Source: a virus
Virus record (IMG/VR): IMGVR_UViG_3300046413_000413
Coordinates: 1-41,196 of that record
DNA length: 41,196 nt
Strand: one strand, 5' to 3'
Position numbers and translations under genes: made by a program. The notes under the pieces were generated by a model. It worked only from the letters and a program-made list of their open reading frames with translations. It did no database searches and was not told the origin of the DNA. Below, piece by piece: positions 34,792 to 41,196 of the stretch. Position 1 is the stretch's first letter, and the number at the start of each line of letters is the position of its first letter.

Positions 34792-34936
34792 AAGGTTCCT
34801 CTGTCCTAAACCGAATGTAATCATGCACAGCAGGAAATAACCAGTCCTGCACTGGCAAACATGCTTCCCAGTTCACAGGTTGAACACAGTTCATCACGAC
34901 TGTCGTCCAAAACGCGCTGATATAGCCCCAGTTCAT
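34739..34936 (-). CDS. Small Trp-rich protein coupled to the C39-like peptidase
   Basis: A 65-residue frame: MNWGYISAFWTTVVMNCVQP, LPVQDWLFPAVHDYIRF, then RTEEPYASEKRALRS. The ATG overlaps the stop of the peptidase gene (ATGA) and no other gene covers 34792-34932. It overlaps the next gene by 53 bases. The composition is aromatic but no clear membrane helix. Probably real. Confidence 0.5.
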   Translation of the reverse strand: MNWGYISAFWTTVVMNCVQPVNWEACLPVQDWLFPAVHDYIRFRTEEPYASEKRALRSINGMDGR

Positions 34937-35670
34937 CGATCAACAAATATGGCCCAGCCGCTTGCTTCGCCTTCTATAGACCAACGCTGGTAGAAAGCAG
35001 GACGCGACATCTTGATCAGTTCACCTGATTTCTTGGGGTTATGACCGCCAGTATCCATATATGGCATACCCATTGGATCCATGGCGATGAAATCATCTTT
35101 GTCGTAACCGACAATTACGCTCCAATGGCCACAGCCCTCGCTGTCGCACACTGCTGGTTGGCCTTTGGTGAGATCACCTCTATGCAACCAACCAACCAAG
35201 ATCGGTCTGCCAGCATCAATCTCAATCTCAATATCCTCAACCCTTGCATCTCTGCGAAACTCAGCATCCAAGCCAAGTGACCTCAACGCAGAGACCTGAG
35301 CGTGGACTGCTGTTGTATCACCAAACTTTCGGCGTACATGCCGATAAGCGTCTTGGCTTTTTATACGATGATGAAATCCAACGACCATTGCAGCTGCTGC
35401 GTCAAAGCATTCCCGGTAGCCATAGCCGGTAAGACTATCTAGCTGGCTGTAATACGGAACTCCGTAAACCTCTTGGTGAATGCCGCTGGTCTTCCAGGTC
35501 TGGAACCATTCCGCTTCTTCATCAAGCAATGCTGGATCGGTAATCGAATCCTCTAGCTGCTTTATCGCTGCCATTTGGTGCGGTGTTTCCCGAAACCACT
35601 TGAAGAAGGGCAGCAGACTCAACGACACAACGCTCGACAGCAAAACTACTTGGATAATGCCGGAGAACAT
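34933..35670 (-). CDS. Membrane-anchored C39-like cysteine peptidase
   Basis: A 245-residue protein. Residues 3-23 are a single N-terminal membrane helix (FSGIIQVVLLSSVVSLSLLP). Residues about 70-235 match the C39-like peptidase fold: a Gln76 before Cys88 in YRECFDAAAAMVVGFHH, then GRPILVGWLHRGD, His182 in GCGHWSVIVGYD and Asp198 in AMDPMG. The catalytic set looks complete. Possible jobs are cleavage of peptidoglycan stem peptides, as a lysis factor, or processing of a membrane-associated protein. The flanking genes for small membrane proteins favour a lysis role. Confidence 0.8.
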   Translation of the reverse strand: MFSGIIQVVLLSSVVSLSLLPFFKWFRETPHQMAAIKQLEDSITDPALLDEEAEWFQTWKTSGIHQEVYGVPYYSQLDSLTGYGYRECFDAAAAMVVGFHHRIKSQDAYRHVRRKFGDTTAVHAQVSALRSLGLDAEFRRDARVEDIEIEIDAGRPILVGWLHRGDLTKGQPAVCDSEGCGHWSVIVGYDKDDFIAMDPMGMPYMDTGGHNPKKSGELIKMSRPAFYQRWSIEGEASGWAIFVDR

Positions 35671-35765
35671 GGTGTATGCCTAGCTGCAAAACCGCTCATA
35701 AACATTGCGCCGCTACCAAACACGACGATCAAGACGCTGATCACAACAGCCAGTACGGATGGCAT
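35646..35765 (-). CDS. 39-residue membrane protein, holin-like candidate
   Basis: A 39-residue protein: MPSVLAVVISVLIVVFGSGA then MFMSGFAARHTPCSPALSK, i.e. one membrane helix from the N terminus and a short tail. It starts 4 bases after the stop of the 57-residue gene and overlaps the peptidase start by 25 bases, so the two are coupled. Size and context suit a holin or anti-holin, but this is only inference. Confidence 0.6.
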   Translation of the reverse strand: MPSVLAVVISVLIVVFGSGAMFMSGFAARHTPCSPALSK

Positions 35766-35769
35766 AAAA

Positions 35770-35943
35770 CTACTTTTCTACCCTTTCGGTCGGAAATAAC
35801 AAATTCTTGAGATACGTGCAGGCCACATCGTCCAGCTCGTTATCAGTCTGCTCGCTGATCTTGACCAGGCAATCAAGTAGCAGCTGTTTTACGGCCTTTG
35901 ATTTGATGAATCCAAACAGAATTGGCTTTAGTAGTAAAACCAT
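35770..35943 (-). CDS. Small conserved protein (MVLLLKPILFGF-type)
   Basis: A 57-residue protein: MVLLLKPILFGFIKSKAVKQ then LLLDCLVKISEQTDNELDDV and LKNLLFPTERVEK. I remember this type, with the LLLKPILFGFxKSKAVKQ opening, as a common small cyanophage protein. It is amphipathic and may associate with the membrane. It lies in the operon with the 84-residue coiled coil and the 39-residue membrane protein. Confidence 0.7.
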   Translation of the reverse strand: MVLLLKPILFGFIKSKAVKQLLLDCLVKISEQTDNELDDVACTYLKNLLFPTERVEK

Positions 35944-35967
35944 GAAATCACTGTGTGTGCAAAAAGT

Positions 35968-36222
35968 CTAATTCCTATTGGCGTGTCCTTCCAGTCGTGC
36001 AACATCTTGCTCCAGCGTTGATATACGGGCAAACAGCTCCTGATCCCTAACCCTCAGATCAGCGTGGAGCACATCCATCCGTGACGCTAAATTATCGACA
36101 GCACTGGTGAGGCGCACTAAAGAATCACGTCCATGCTGGTTTTCGCGGTTGGCTCCTTTGATGCCAGAAGCCGCTACGCCTATTGACGCTCCAGCAACAG
36201 CAGCCCAGATTTCAACCACCAT
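35968..36222 (-). CDS. Membrane-anchored coiled-coil protein, possible spanin- or holin-like
   Basis: An 84-residue protein. The first 20 residues (VVEIWAAVAGASIGVAASGI) are a membrane helix or uncleaved signal. Residues about 30-80 form a coiled coil (LVRLTSAVDNLASRMDVLHA, LFARISTLEQDVARLEGHA). The layout recalls inner-membrane spanins, but no Rz-type partner lipoprotein is seen. First gene of the minus-strand lysis-like operon, divergent from the exported-protein genes. Confidence 0.65.
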   Translation of the reverse strand: MVVEIWAAVAGASIGVAASGIKGANRENQHGRDSLVRLTSAVDNLASRMDVLHADLRVRDQELFARISTLEQDVARLEGHANRN

Positions 36223-36245
36223 TCGACCTTTAGCGTGAACTCATC

Positions 36246-36509
36246 ATGGCAGAAGAACAGATTAAGCAAGAGCAAGAGCCAGAATCAACGCCGTTGGCGG
36301 ATTTTGTAAAACTCGCTGTTCTTACGTGGTCTATTGCAATGCTGACCCTTAATTACTTGGGTCACGTCAAAGCCATGGATCCAACTTTCCCCGCAAGTTT
36401 GTTGACTGGGACGTTGAGTTCCGTAGGGGTCAACATCAAACGCGCCAATGGCAAGAAGAAAGAAGACCCTACAATCAAGCCAGAAACCACTACGTCCAAG
36501 CCAAAATGA
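36246..36509 (+). CDS. Small membrane protein with charged tails
   Basis: An 87-residue protein: acidic N terminus, then a hydrophobic segment from about residue 22 to 40 (VKLAVLTWSIAMLTLNYLGH) and a Lys/Thr-rich C terminus. A second weak hydrophobic segment (FPASLLTGTLSSVGVNIK) follows. Common in cyanophages as I remember. It starts 23 bases from the divergent operon and ends in an ATGA overlap with the exported protein gene. Confidence 0.65.
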   Translation: MAEEQIKQEQEPESTPLADFVKLAVLTWSIAMLTLNYLGHVKAMDPTFPASLLTGTLSSVGVNIKRANGKKKEDPTIKPETTTSKPK

Positions 36510-37036
36510 GACGTTTTTTCTTTGTAACCTGTCTAACATTTTTTGCCTCAAGTCCTGCGTTGGCTGACATTAATCATGTCTTGACGCAATCAGCTCAGAT
36601 CAGCATTGATCAGGCTTACAGCTCAGCCAAACGAATCGGTTCTACCTACAGCGCATCAGGCTCAAATGTGACACCAAGCGTCACCAGTGGTAGCACTACA
36701 ACCAGTGGGGCCATTGGCGGCCTGAATCTTGGCAGCCTGACCAGTGGCGTTCCAGCCATGGTTGACACGAATTACGCGGTGACTACCGCAGGTTCGGCTT
36801 TCTCATTTAGTGAGTCGGCAGTGGTTGGCGACACGATAAGTTCAGCCACTGAGGTGACCTCTACCACTGGCACCGTTGATGACCTTCCAACATACGGCGA
36901 AGTCGTGACTGGTTCTGGTGGGGTGAAAGCTAATCTGGCGGCGACAGCTCTTTCAAGCGGCATTATGACGATTACAGCAGGTGGAGCGGGTACAAGTGCA
37001 ATCCTGTCTAACAAGATGGCACTTGAAATTGATTAA
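36506..37036 (+). CDS. Exported Ser/Thr/Gly-rich protein 1
   Basis: A 176-residue protein with a signal peptide (MRRFFFVTCLTFFASSPALA, cleavage after residue 20). The mature part is low in charge and rich in Ser, Thr, Gly and Ala, with blocks YSASGSNVTPSVTSG, GAIGGLNLGS and SAFSFSESAVVGD. A similar order of blocks occurs in the next protein (YSYSAAGHNV, GGVNFSW, SLTES), so the two are probably distant paralogues. Expected in the periplasm or at the outer membrane. The function is unknown. Confidence 0.75.
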   Translation: MRRFFFVTCLTFFASSPALADINHVLTQSAQISIDQAYSSAKRIGSTYSASGSNVTPSVTSGSTTTSGAIGGLNLGSLTSGVPAMVDTNYAVTTAGSAFSFSESAVVGDTISSATEVTSTTGTVDDLPTYGEVVTGSGGVKANLAATALSSGIMTITAGGAGTSAILSNKMALEID

Positions 37037-37460
37037 AGCTTGGCTGCTGGTTTTGTTGTTGCCTAGCTCTGCTTTGGCAGCTCCAATCGTGCCGCAGTTC
37101 ACTCAGGGTCAACTTAATTCCCGCACTGAATCCACAACAATCATTCAAGAATCGATCACCAGTCACAATTACAGAACCGGATATTCTTATTCAGCGGCAG
37201 GCCATAATGTCGAAACTGTGGGGGATATTCCTATCTCGCCTGACGCTACCGTCACAAACAATCAGACAGTTGGTGGAGTCAACTTTTCATGGACAAGCCC
37301 AAACCTTGAAACTAAGCCCCAATGGCAAGTAATCAATCCTGGTGCAAGCTGGAGCCTGACAGAATCATTCATGGCTCCAGGCTTAGATGCAGTGACTACG
37401 ATCCAACGCACCATCCAAACCGAAAGCGTAACCGAGTCGCAGTCGGTGTTCTCGCAATAA
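37023..37460 (+). CDS. Exported Ser/Thr-rich protein 2
   Basis: A 145-residue protein starting with TTG at 37023, which lies in the end of the previous gene. The signal peptide is MKLIKAWLLVLLLPSSALA, cleavage after residue 19. The mature protein includes HNYRTGYSYSAAGHNV, TVTNNQTVGGVNFSWTS and WSLTESFMAPGLDAVT. It resembles the preceding exported protein in block order. A start upstream in the same frame would place a signal peptide far from the N terminus, so TTG is preferred. Function unknown. Confidence 0.7.
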   Translation: MKLIKAWLLVLLLPSSALAAPIVPQFTQGQLNSRTESTTIIQESITSHNYRTGYSYSAAGHNVETVGDIPISPDATVTNNQTVGGVNFSWTSPNLETKPQWQVINPGASWSLTESFMAPGLDAVTTIQRTIQTESVTESQSVFSQ

Positions 37461-38098
37461 TTACTGCATTTGGTGGACCGGTGCAAGCCAACACAACAGT
37501 GGCAAATCCGTCCAGTACATCAAGCGGTTCAGTCGTCAATAACGCCTATCAAATGATGACCGGACCACATCCTATATATCGGATGAGTCAAGGTATTCAG
37601 TGCCCTGGTCCTACGTTATCGCTCAGTCCGTTTGTCACATCTAGCCGAAACTTTGATCTGCCCCATCAATCAGTAACCAGAACACCTGTCTACTCAAGTG
37701 CTGATGCAGACGATAACGGTGAGCCAGACTCCCCAGGCAAGGTGCTCTACTACTCAGAAATGCCGCGATTTGAGAAAGATCGTAGATCAGTCAACTACGG
37801 AATAACAGCAACGTTTTCTATGCCATTGGATGGTGGCCTAACTGCTAGGTGTAAGCGTGCCGTAGAAACAAACATCGAGCTGCAACAGCAGTTATTGGCA
37901 ACAAAGCGGCTGGAGTACGAATTGTTCCGCGCCAAGCAATGCGGGCAGCTAGCTGAATCAAGAATCCAATTCAGACCAGGCAGTCGATACGCTCAAGTTT
38001 GCGAAGACATTGTGGTTTACATTCCACCCCAAAAGGTGATCCCACATGTTCACGCTATTTCCGCGCCTTCCGCTGATTCTTCTGACGCTCAAAAGTAG
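37322..38098 (+). CDS. Exported protein 3, with long overlap on protein 2
   Basis: A 258-residue frame. A hydrophobic signal-like segment lies at residues 39-56 (VAVGVLAIITAFGGPVQA), with a basic NRKRNR just before it, so export is likely. The mature part has QCPGPTLSLSPFVTSSRNFD, VNYGITATFSMPLDGGLTAR and a C-terminal helical, Cys-containing region (ELFRAKQCGQLAESRIQF). The only ATG is at 37322, which makes a long n-region and overlaps the previous gene by 139 bases; a non-AUG start nearer the signal is possible. The 3' end overlaps the convergent gene by 44 bases. Confidence 0.65.
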   Translation: MASNQSWCKLEPDRIIHGSRLRCSDYDPTHHPNRKRNRVAVGVLAIITAFGGPVQANTTVANPSSTSSGSVVNNAYQMMTGPHPIYRMSQGIQCPGPTLSLSPFVTSSRNFDLPHQSVTRTPVYSSADADDNGEPDSPGKVLYYSEMPRFEKDRRSVNYGITATFSMPLDGGLTARCKRAVETNIELQQQLLATKRLEYELFRAKQCGQLAESRIQFRPGSRYAQVCEDIVVYIPPQKVIPHVHAISAPSADSSDAQK

Positions 38099-38765
38099 AA
38101 GGGCGATCTTCCTTCTTACGGGTTACGACCTCTTTTAGTTTCGTAATTACCTTTTTGACCAGCGGCTTGACGATACGCAGCAGAAAAGGCGTACTCAATG
38201 CGGCAGTAGTAGCAAGCACGGCAATGCTTGCAGTTTGCGCTGCTTCATAAGGCGATGGAACAGCTTTGATCAACTGCTCTGTCACTGGCACGTTTCGATA
38301 GACCTCTTTGCAAACGCCATCTACTAATTCGTAAGACTCAAGAATCTTGCGGCCATCAGGTGACAATGTGCCAATCTCTGCAGCGTCTGCAGCAGGGCAA
38401 TCGATTTCTGGCTTTTTATCCTCTGGCGGTGGGTTTGGTTTCTGTGGTTTAGTTTCTGCTAGTGGGGTCTCTTGCTGTTGATTCTGAACAGGCGCTGCTT
38501 CGATGATTTTTAGATCCCGTGGATTCCAATCCATCGGGTTATAACTTGGCATTTTGCCTTCAGGGCAAGCCGTTCCAACACCATTCGGATCATCACGAAG
38601 CAGCGATGGGTTGAGTTGTGCATCTCTGTGGACGTTGGCACAACCAGGCACCTGATAAATCGGGGCAGGTGGTAACTCTGCTGTTATCGGTGGAGCGTAA
38701 ACGTAAGGCTCTGGAATTATTCGCGGTTCAATGCTTCGGATCTGTATATCCGGTATGTCAGGCAT
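38055..38765 (-). CDS. Proline-rich protein with C-terminal membrane segment (cyanophage family)
   Basis: A 236-residue protein: MPDIPDIQIRSIEPRI, a Pro-rich first half (PEPYVYAPPITAELPPAP, KPQKPNPPPEDKKP), a middle with paired Cys (YQVPGCANVHRD, GTACPEGKMPSYNPMDWNPR), then a hydrophobic helix near residues 183-208 (ASIAVLATTAALSTPFLL) and a basic C-terminal tail. I recall clearly similar proteins, with the same opening and MPSYNPMD-type block, in cyanophages. Possibly a virion or envelope-spanning protein; function not known. Confidence 0.75.
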   Translation of the reverse strand: MPDIPDIQIRSIEPRIIPEPYVYAPPITAELPPAPIYQVPGCANVHRDAQLNPSLLRDDPNGVGTACPEGKMPSYNPMDWNPRDLKIIEAAPVQNQQQETPLAETKPQKPNPPPEDKKPEIDCPAADAAEIGTLSPDGRKILESYELVDGVCKEVYRNVPVTEQLIKAVPSPYEAAQTASIAVLATTAALSTPFLLRIVKPLVKKVITKLKEVVTRKKEDRPSTFERQKNQRKARK

Positions 38766-38769
38766 ACAG

Positions 38770-39009
38770 TCAGAAAGGTGACTTAGGAAGCTCGACTGCT
38801 GGCCCAGTTGCTTTAGGTAGTTCAGGCATCACGTCATCGATCTTGCCTGGCACCATGTCAGCCAAAACCTTGGTCAGTTCAGTCTGTAGCTCACTCATGT
38901 AGTGCTTTGTGATTGATGGGATGCGCGTGTAAAGCACCAACGACCCAACAACCATCGTTCCACTCATCAAAAACCCGAGGGCTCCGGCCAAGTTAAAAAA
39001 CTTCTGCAT
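38770..39009 (-). CDS. Small membrane protein (cyanophage family)
   Basis: A 79-residue protein: MQKFFNLAGALGFLMSGTMV is the start of a membrane helix, followed by a helix (YMSELQTELTKVLADMVPGK) and a Pro-rich end (PELPKATGPAVELPKSPF). The same plan, with TGPAxxLPxSPF at the end, is known to me from cyanophage genomes. It lies just upstream of the proline-rich gene with a 4-base gap, so the two may act together. Confidence 0.75.
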   Translation of the reverse strand: MQKFFNLAGALGFLMSGTMVVGSLVLYTRIPSITKHYMSELQTELTKVLADMVPGKIDDVMPELPKATGPAVELPKSPF

Positions 39010-39020
39010 GATCAGATGTG

Positions 39021-39061
39021 CAAAGAAAAGCCCCTTCCCTGGTGTGAGGACAGGAAAGGGG
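39021..39061 (-). terminator. Rho-independent terminator (minus strand)
   Basis: An 11-base stem CCCCTTCCCTG/CAGGAAAGGGG with one mismatch (39031-39041 with 39051-39061), followed on the minus strand by CTTTTCTTTG. A second perfect hairpin GTCTCC/GGAGAC lies at 39068-39084 just after the outer-membrane-like gene. Together they separate this gene from the two downstream genes. Confidence 0.75.
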
Positions 39062-39088
39062 TAAGGCGTCTCCCTATTGGAGACTAGC

Positions 39089-39451
39089 TCAGAAGCTGTA
39101 CTTAGCTCCCACTTTCAGGCCATAGCCTGCATCAACGTCTTCGTACTTAGCGAACGAAACTTCGCCGTACATGTCAACGTTGTCTGCAACAGAAGCTGAC
39201 AGCCCGGTTTTGCCTGAGAATCCAACCTCAGCATCAGCGCCATCGACCATCAGTACAGATGGACCTCCCTGCAGGTAGAACGCACCAGACTCATATCCCA
39301 CTCCGAGATCTAGAACTCCAGCAGTGAAGTCAGAGCCGACCCAGCCAGCGTTATATTCCGGGTTCAAATAGAAGTTACCTTCTGCTTGGGCAGGAGATGC
39401 CAGCACAGCAGCGCCAACGACGGCAGAACTCACAATCAATGATTTGATCAT
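39089..39451 (-). CDS. Small outer-membrane barrel-like protein (porin-like)
   Basis: A 120-residue protein with a signal peptide (MIKSLIVSSAVVGAAVLASP then AQA, cleavage after residue 23). The mature part of about 97 residues has alternating beta strands: FYLNPEYNAGWVG, GVLDLGVGYESGAFYLQGG, KTGLSASVADNVDMYGEVS, and a terminal GLKVGAKYSF with the C-terminal Phe that targets outer-membrane barrels to assembly. I recall close relatives in cyanomyoviruses. It could alter the host surface (for example to block superinfection) or be a virion part; neither is shown. ATG 39451 is preferred over ATG 39484. Confidence 0.8.
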   Translation of the reverse strand: MIKSLIVSSAVVGAAVLASPAQAEGNFYLNPEYNAGWVGSDFTAGVLDLGVGYESGAFYLQGGPSVLMVDGADAEVGFSGKTGLSASVADNVDMYGEVSFAKYEDVDAGYGLKVGAKYSF

Positions 39452-40110: not shown

Positions 40111-41196
40111 TCAACAAGCCATCAATACGCAAGGTACGCAATAGCTGTTGTCTGAGTAAGTCGTAGAAACTGTGGTGCTAGTCACCTTTGCAATCGTCTT
40201 GGAACGCACGATGTCATCATCTTGAGGCTTAGCCGTTCCATCACCAGCAGACATCAATAGATCTCCGCGAGCAACTGTTGTTCCTTGTGCAATACGAATA
40301 ACAAAATCCCCCGTCATCGCGCAATAGAAATCATTGGTGTAGGTGTCATCGTCATCGTCCCAAGCTTGGAATACACCTGAGACGTTCTTATCGCCTTCGA
40401 CATCGCTGACCTGCATACGGTTTAGTTGTTCGTTATCTTCTTCGCCCCATTCACACATTTCGTCGAGGTTGCTTAATACAGAACCACGCAAGATTTCAGT
40501 GCGTGCTGCACCAGCTGCAAGTTGTGACCAGCGAGCAAGGTGACCACCGTTATATGAAACAGTGCTGCCAGAAACAGAAATATTTCCTTCTACACTATTA
40601 TCCTGGCGGAATTGTATTAATTCTCCATCACTACCTTTGCGATTTACCATATGTGGAGGCGTGTTAGTAGCTACAGCAACAACGGCATAATCGTTATCTC
40701 CATTTAACAATTCAGCGCCATTATCGTTATTACCACTGGCGCTTTTACCCACCAACAGCCTGCCCGCGATGTCGATTCGCATTCGCTCAGTAGCATTTGA
40801 TTCGTCTTTAAACGCGAGAGCGTTATCTGTACCAACCGCTAATGAGTATGTCGCATTGCCAGGATTACTTATTACAAGTTTAGCGTTAGTATCATCCGTT
40901 ACTTGGAAATTAGCGTCTGATACATACGCGCTTGTGCTACCCACCAACAGCCTGCCCGAGCTGTCGATTCTCATTGCTTCCGATTCAGAACCGGAATTGT
41001 TGACTAAAAATTTGAAGTTGGAACTATTTGAACCACCACCATTTTGTATTCTTGACGTACTATTATTAAAACCATTTTTAAAGTATAAACTAGCTCCAGC
41101 GTATCCAAGAGTTGTATTTCCCGAGCTGTCGATTCGCATTCGCTCGGCACCAGCAGTTACCCATTTAAAATAATCTCCATTATGGTCATACTGAAT
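40111..41196 (-). CDS. Tail fibre protein, C-terminal part (gene cut by the window end)
   Basis: The 3' part of the fibre gene that begins at 613 and wraps round the circle. Bases 41070-41196 repeat 1-127. The shaft repeats ERMRIDIAGRLLVG and AMRIDSSGRLLVGS are visible; then comes a different C-terminal domain of about 180 residues (GGHLARWSQLAAGAARTEIL, DEMCEWGEEDNEQLNRMQVS, FYCAMTGDFVIRIAQGTTVA). It resembles the end domains of fibre proteins that carry VSGVFQAWDDDDD-type blocks. No S74 domain is seen. This C terminus would be the receptor-facing tip if the fibre is oriented as usual. Confidence 0.85.
   Translation of the reverse strand: MQYDHNGDYFKWVTAGAERMRIDSSGNTTLGYAGASLYFKNGFNNSTSRIQNGGGSNSSNFKFLVNNSGSESEAMRIDSSGRLLVGSTSAYVSDANFQVTDDTNAKLVISNPGNATYSLAVGTDNALAFKDESNATERMRIDIAGRLLVGKSASGNNDNGAELLNGDNDYAVVAVATNTPPHMVNRKGSDGELIQFRQDNSVEGNISVSGSTVSYNGGHLARWSQLAAGAARTEILRGSVLSNLDEMCEWGEEDNEQLNRMQVSDVEGDKNVSGVFQAWDDDDDTYTNDFYCAMTGDFVIRIAQGTTVARGDLLMSAGDGTAKPQDDDIVRSKTIAKVTSTTVSTTYSDNSYCVPCVLMAC
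41070..41196. repeat. Right copy of 127-bp terminal direct repeat
   Basis: Identical to bases 1-127. Trimming one copy gives a circular molecule of 41,069 bases. Confidence 0.95.

Follow-up and report, generated by a model that had tools for sequence, protein, structure and literature searches.

A conserved block of exported and membrane protein genes in a cyanosiphovirus genome as a candidate envelope-breach module of cyanophages

Gene organization of the block

The IMG/VR record IMGVR_UViG_3300046413_000413 is a viral contig of 41,196 base pairs (bp), which was analysed over its full length and is called the window here. It carries a block of ten genes for exported and membrane proteins at positions 34933-39451 (Table 1), whose families recur in three unrelated types of cyanophages and may serve to breach the host envelope. 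An exact 127-bp repeat is present at both ends of the record (1-127 and 41070-41196), which shows that the assembly is circularised and has a length of about 41,069 bp. The tail-fibre open reading frame (ORF) at 40111-41139 on the minus strand runs on across the circle junction by up to 567 nucleotides (nt). The window has lambda-like structural genes for a J-type tail tip, tape measure, portal and terminase, and its J protein is 29-30% identical over nearly the whole length to those of the Prochlorococcus siphophages MED4-117 and P-HS2, indicating that the window phage is a cyanosiphovirus.

All proteins of the island belong to catalogued PHROG or Pfam families and are named below after them. 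Signal peptides, their cleavage sites and transmembrane (TM) helices were called by a simple heuristic in our own list of 54 genes. The original prediction placed an envelope island at 36246-39451, with export signals on the proteins starting at 36506, 37023, 37322 and 39089, membrane helices in three proteins and two facing operons. All four export signals are found and are kept in relatives, and TM helices are present in the proteins at 36246, 38055 and 38770. The ORFs lie where they were predicted, but the true left edge lies further left, as the conserved block also includes the C39 endolysin gene and the genes of two small proteins at 35770 and 35968. All seven genes in 36246-39451 encode exported or membrane proteins, compared with 11 of 54 strictly flagged genome-wide (hypergeometric p about 2e-6). 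The same holds for the ten genes in 34933-39451, compared with 13 of 54 flagged (p about 1e-8); both p-values refer to heuristic flags and to a span picked after the data had been seen. The 848 and 570 genes overlap tail-to-tail by 44 nt, in agreement with convergent operons. Since a promoter and terminator scan of the window gave results below chance expectation, the operons are defined by gene order alone.

Table 1. Genes of the conserved block in the window
Feature	Coordinates	Strand	Evidence
C39-type/lysozyme-family endolysin, phrog_10051	34933..35670	-	PHROG E 7e-55; Pfam Peptidase_C39_2 44 bits vs cut-off 24
57-residue protein, phrog_2738	35770..35943	-	PHROG match; position conserved in sipho relatives
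84-residue protein, phrog_26178, N-terminal TM helix and predicted coiled coil	35968..36222	-	PHROG match
DUF6450 (PF20048), holin candidate	36246..36509	+	48.8 bits vs curated cut-off 25
phrog_564, exported Ser/Thr/Gly-rich protein ('OMP1' in some records)	36506..37036	+	E 6e-35; signal peptide
phrog_650 / DUF6322 (PF19847), exported protein	37023..37460	+	109.8 bits vs curated cut-off 30.6
phrog_848, exported protein	37322..38098	+	E 1.4e-74
phrog_570, Pro-rich protein, single TM helix near the C-terminus	38055..38765	-	E 5e-51; topology
phrog_568, small N-terminally anchored protein	38770..39009	-	E 1.7e-12; TM 10-26
PF24653 Phage_OMP / phrog_417, small outer-membrane beta-barrel	39089..39451	-	99.1 bits vs curated cut-off 27

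Exported and membrane proteins of the block

Signal peptidase I (SPase I)-type cleavage sites are seen at MRRFFFVTCLTFFASSPALA/D in the 564 protein, MKLIKAWLLVLLLPSSALA/A in the 650 protein and MIKSLIVSSAVVGAAVLASPAQA/E in the barrel, and the 848 protein has an unusually long n-region of 35-40 residues with cleavage after residue 56. The signal peptide is kept in 320 of 336 relatives of 848, 281 of 338 of 650, 190 of 194 of 564 and all 106 of the barrel. The family alignment of 848 shows four invariant Cys residues (94, 177, 207 and 227), as expected for a periplasmic protein, and so 848 is probably disulfide-bonded. The Ser/Thr/Gly-rich 564 and 650 proteins match each other's PHROGs (E 1.7e-4 and 5.4e-4), and alignment of the two families by hhalign gives a probability of 95% (E 3e-8, 73 columns), indicating that they are paralogues, as had been suspected. 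The 564 protein scores 17.2 on DUF6322, which is below the cut-off, unlike its paralogue, whose C-terminal SVFSQ is conserved in the alignment.

The 570 protein has its TM helix at residues 180-196, with a net charge of -11 before it and +12 in the strongly cationic tail after it. By the positive-inside rule, the Pro-rich acidic arm is therefore predicted to be outside and the basic tail inside. No signal peptide was called in 300 relatives of 570. The DUF6450 protein has hydrophobic stretches at residues 17-33 and 48-64 and a charged C-terminus, and both of its ends are predicted to be cytoplasmic. The endolysin has an N-terminal hydrophobic anchor (TM at residues 5-23) and is possibly a signal-anchored form that is exported without a holin pore. 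The protein at 35968 gives a sub-significant match to Rz-like proteins (E 0.033). The outer-membrane barrel that had been predicted from the sequence is confirmed by a match covering the full PF24653 model (positions 1-122 of 122), and its C-terminus is KYSF. The database label 'plasmid stability' on phrog_568, which is common among cyanophage genes, fits a small membrane-anchored protein poorly, and such a role finds no support in this analysis.

Conservation of the block among cyanophages

A viral-contig search with 848 found 66 relatives. Sipho relatives with enough flanking sequence keep the order C39-35770-35968-DUF6450-564-650-848-570-568-barrel; in some of them 570 and 568 are separated by an additional gap, or no 35968 gene is detected. 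About 440 cyanophage records carry 848, all of them from cyanophages or marine virus records, and bacterial genomes yielded no relative of 848 in a scan that would detect close ones only. The five core families are present in Syn9, S-SM1, S-SCSM1, P-SSM2, P-HM1, S-TIM4, S-SKS1 and MED4-117. S-TIM5 also retains the core families, with DUF6450 and 568 moved elsewhere in its genome. Of 30 genomes compared, the 14 with 848, and no others, match DUF6450 strongly (Fisher p 7e-9), even when the two genes are far apart as in S-TIM5; weak, stop-interrupted matches of DUF6450 in S-N03 and S-CREM2 and of 848 in S-CAM7 were counted as absent.

The T4-like members correspond to the T4-GC clusters 234-237 of Sullivan et al. 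(PMC3037559), with cluster numbers taken from phage records. T4-GC 234-237, 414 and 241 (Syn9 gp162-167, S-SM1 SSM1_164-169) comprise the same families as the window block, namely DUF6322, DUF6450, Phage_OMP and PHROGs 564, 568, 570, 650, 848 and 417. The order 564-650-848, with 570 alongside and facing 848, is also shared with the window in Syn9, S-SM1 and all 77 T4-like contigs compared; in S-TIM4, 848 and 570 are on one strand. Unlike the T4-like clusters, the window block is linked to the C39 endolysin and the two small proteins, and DUF6450 is at its other end. T4-like cyanophages have an extra membrane protein, phrog_605, between 568 and 570 (L005:3710-4270, L002:7267-7902), which is absent from the window. 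In almost every one of 156 loci, the T7-like cyanophages carry a minimal set of a 570-like gene, DUF6450, 650 and 848 between the genes for the tail fibre and the terminase, the 570 homologue being a short one, phrog_9426.

The original prediction called such a concentration of envelope proteins unusual in a 41-kb phage, which is misleading, because cyanophages of 38-250 kb commonly carry these families. It had also made its claim depend on co-occurrence in relatives, and the block does recur in sipho-, T4-like and T7-like cyanophages. One set of exported and membrane proteins is thus common to unrelated virion types, which speaks for a role in the envelope of the host.

Overlap of the 650 and 848 genes

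The first 139 nt of the 848 gene (37322-37460) lie within the 650 gene and are read in a different frame; this overlap has exactly the same length in all 55 sipho relatives tested. A similar out-of-frame overlap is found in Syn9 (gp165/gp166) and S-SM1. The overlap region codes for the long basic n-region that precedes the signal sequence of 848; the 848 gene of P-SSP7 starts closer to the signal peptide than that of the window phage. At fourfold sites, 650 diverges modestly less inside the overlap than elsewhere (0.41 vs 0.51), although protein divergence is higher there. The possibility that the 5' overlapping part of 848 is an annotation artefact was rejected, because the start is in place in the relatives covering it, the frame is open, the overlap is identical in length and the fourfold-site divergence is lower.

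Relation to endolysins and known lysis cassettes

Among the 16 genomes that lack 848, 14 have the lysozyme/C39 endolysin phrog_10051, compared with 2 of the 14 that carry 848 (Fisher p = 1.3e-4, indicative only, since the 30 genomes were hand-picked and are phylogenetically non-independent). The inverse pattern is seen within each phage type. Syn9, S-SM1, P-SSM2, P-HM1 and S-TIM4 have 848, and S-PM2, S-CAM7, S-SZBM1, S-CREM1 and ACG-2014f have the endolysin among T4-like phages; the corresponding podophages are P-SSP7, S-RIP2 and P-SCSP1g versus S-CBP2 and S-SRP02, and the siphophages MED4-117 versus P-SS2 and the S-CBS phages. The regA-hsp20 region of S-SZBM1 lacks the block, and a C39 gene is located elsewhere in that genome. 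S-SCSM1, which gives a weak partial match to another part of the endolysin profile, was counted as lacking the endolysin. No Amidase_2 (T7-type) endolysin was found in any of the 30 genomes. Strict mutual exclusion of the block and the endolysin was rejected, given the phages that combine them: the window group, DSL-LC02 and, with a divergent C39 homologue, S-ShM2/S-RIM14. In the freshwater phage DSL-LC02, the DUF6450 gene, a lysozyme gene and a C39 peptidase gene lie within about 5 kb (L392:2137-6800), with 848 a few kb off.

T7 keeps its holin and Rz genes between the tail fibre and the terminase (gp17.5 holin, gp18.5/18.7 Rz/Rz1). The P-SSP7-type set 570-DUF6450-650-848 occupies the same place, and one of its members is a two-segment hydrophobic protein; the annotation of P-SSP7 itself contains no holin, lysozyme or spanin. 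Only the position is shared with the T7 lysis genes, however, as neither sequence similarity nor a lipoprotein outer spanin nor a T7-type amidase was found. The window block also resembles S-R-Rz-Rz1-type cassettes of lambda in clustering an endolysin, TM proteins and exported proteins, the murein hydrolase gene being that of phrog_10051/C39 at 34933-35670. Where spanins would be expected, it has three Sec-exported proteins with SPase I sites and no recognised fold; no island protein shows the features of a lipobox-bearing outer-membrane lipoprotein with an inner-membrane partner or of a unimolecular spanin. Furthermore, unlike holin-endolysin-spanin cassettes, the block lacks an endolysin in most of its carriers outside the window sipho group, phrog_10051 being missing in 12 of the 14 genomes that have 848.

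A possible role in breaching the host envelope

The position of the core in the holin/Rz slot of T7, the adjoining endolysin gene in the window and the mostly inverse endolysin distribution together favour lysis. It is therefore possible, with a probability that we put at roughly 45%, that the block is a cyanophage-specific envelope-breach (lysis or egress) module that is made late in infection. From the observed conserved unit, with its export and membrane signals, gene order, T7-like position, DUF6450 linkage and inverse endolysin distribution, we infer both the late timing and the following steps. The DUF6450 protein with its two hydrophobic segments would act as a holin-like inner-membrane protein, its pore function being a prediction, and 570 with its C-terminal TM helix and the small anchored 568 protein would reach into the periplasm. 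Sec-exported 848 and the paralogous 650 and 564 proteins would act in the periplasm or at the outer membrane, breaching the wall and the outer membrane. The module would stand in for the lysozyme/C39 endolysin in most phages having it and act beside one in the window phage and its relatives. These data agree well with the original prediction that such a system works across the envelope of the host; of the three options that it offered, stepwise lysis is the best supported, and exclusion of other phages and surface change are less so.

Several observations weigh against a lytic role. No hydrolase signature was found in 848, 650, 564 or 570, profile searches of PDB sequences gave chance-level matches and no solved homologue for 848, 650, 570 and DUF6450, and the exported proteins have AxA-type SPase I sites and no lipobox (+1 Cys), so that none is a classical outer spanin. 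A search of NCBIfam gave nothing significant. The T4-like block lies among replication genes (regA, hsp20 and gp43), outside any obvious late region. The endolysin pattern has exceptions beside the sampling limits given above: both 848 and the endolysin are present in the window phage group and DSL-LC02, S-ShM2/S-RIM14 have a divergent C39 homologue (about 29% identity) plus 848, and both are missing from Syn5 and P60. Nothing was found on the expression, deletion or localisation of the module genes. DUF6322 is not mentioned in the open-access library searched, and no link of these genes to lysis was found in the papers retrieved from it.

The barrel and alternative roles

The barrel goes by the name 'DUF680' in T4-like cyanophages. 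It is a dispensable outer-membrane protein that accompanies the block here but can be separated from it. It is distant from the core in Syn9, is present in S-SZBM1 without the core, and is absent from MED4-117, which has the core. Mass spectrometry placed DUF680 of S-TIM4 among the non-structural proteins, and many independent mutations (frameshifts, nonsense changes and deletions) inactivated it on passage in Synechococcus WH8102 (PMC6224464). These losses, which point to a host-dependent, dispensable trait, suit the alternative that the module remodels the host surface during infection, with exported proteins and the barrel masking or blocking receptors, excluding other phages or altering uptake. 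Both the exported and outer-membrane proteins of the block and the place of the T4-like block among replication genes would agree with this. Such remodelling is nevertheless less probable than lysis, because the barrel is separable from the core, the podovirus core lies in the late slot of the T7 lysis genes, the inverse endolysin pattern is not predicted and no significant match was obtained in the PADLOC defence library.

A second alternative is that the proteins are virion parts or assembly helpers, such as decoration proteins or fibrils, spread by horizontal transfer. A DUF680 barrel homologue is present in purified S-SZBM1 particles (PMC9146016 Table 1), where carry-over of membrane vesicles could be another source of it, and the block adjoins tail-fibre genes in the window and in podoviruses. 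A purely virion role is less likely, however, and we regard this alternative as improbable, since Sec signals or TM helices are predicted for the core families in most relatives, DUF680 of S-TIM4 was not counted as structural, and the S-SM1 core proteins are annotated as hypothetical though S-SM1 virions were analysed (PMC3037559). In addition, virions of T4, T7 and lambda type would all need to use the same proteins. Least probable is an auxiliary role in envelope physiology, such as a porin-like nutrient or stress response, with the endolysin pattern merely mirroring host lineage: work cited in PMC6224464 links DUF680 to phosphate limitation, DUF680 adjoins pstS in S-SM1 and P-SSM2, and many C39-bearing phages come from estuarine and freshwater hosts, but the phosphate evidence concerns the barrel and not the core, and the oceanic S-PM2, P-SS2, S-CAM7 and ACG-2014f have C39 and no clear copy of the module.

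Implications for cyanophage lysis

The genomes of most marine cyanophages do not make clear how these phages lyse Synechococcus and Prochlorococcus, as many of them have no obvious endolysin. The envelope-breach reading gives a specific four-gene candidate (570, DUF6450, 650 and 848) common to three phage types. It leads to a broader and more tentative hypothesis that marine cyanophages without a recognisable endolysin, namely most T4-like and many T7-like ones, may lyse their hosts by a shared, previously unrecognised envelope-rupture machine made of DUF6450, 570, 650/564 and 848, which would have moved between three unrelated phage types and replaced the lysozyme/C39 endolysin. Genetic engineering exists for a module-bearing phage, S-TIP37 on WH8109 (PMC8776855). 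If the hypothesis is true, it would give a role to several of the commonest unknown genes in ocean viruses.

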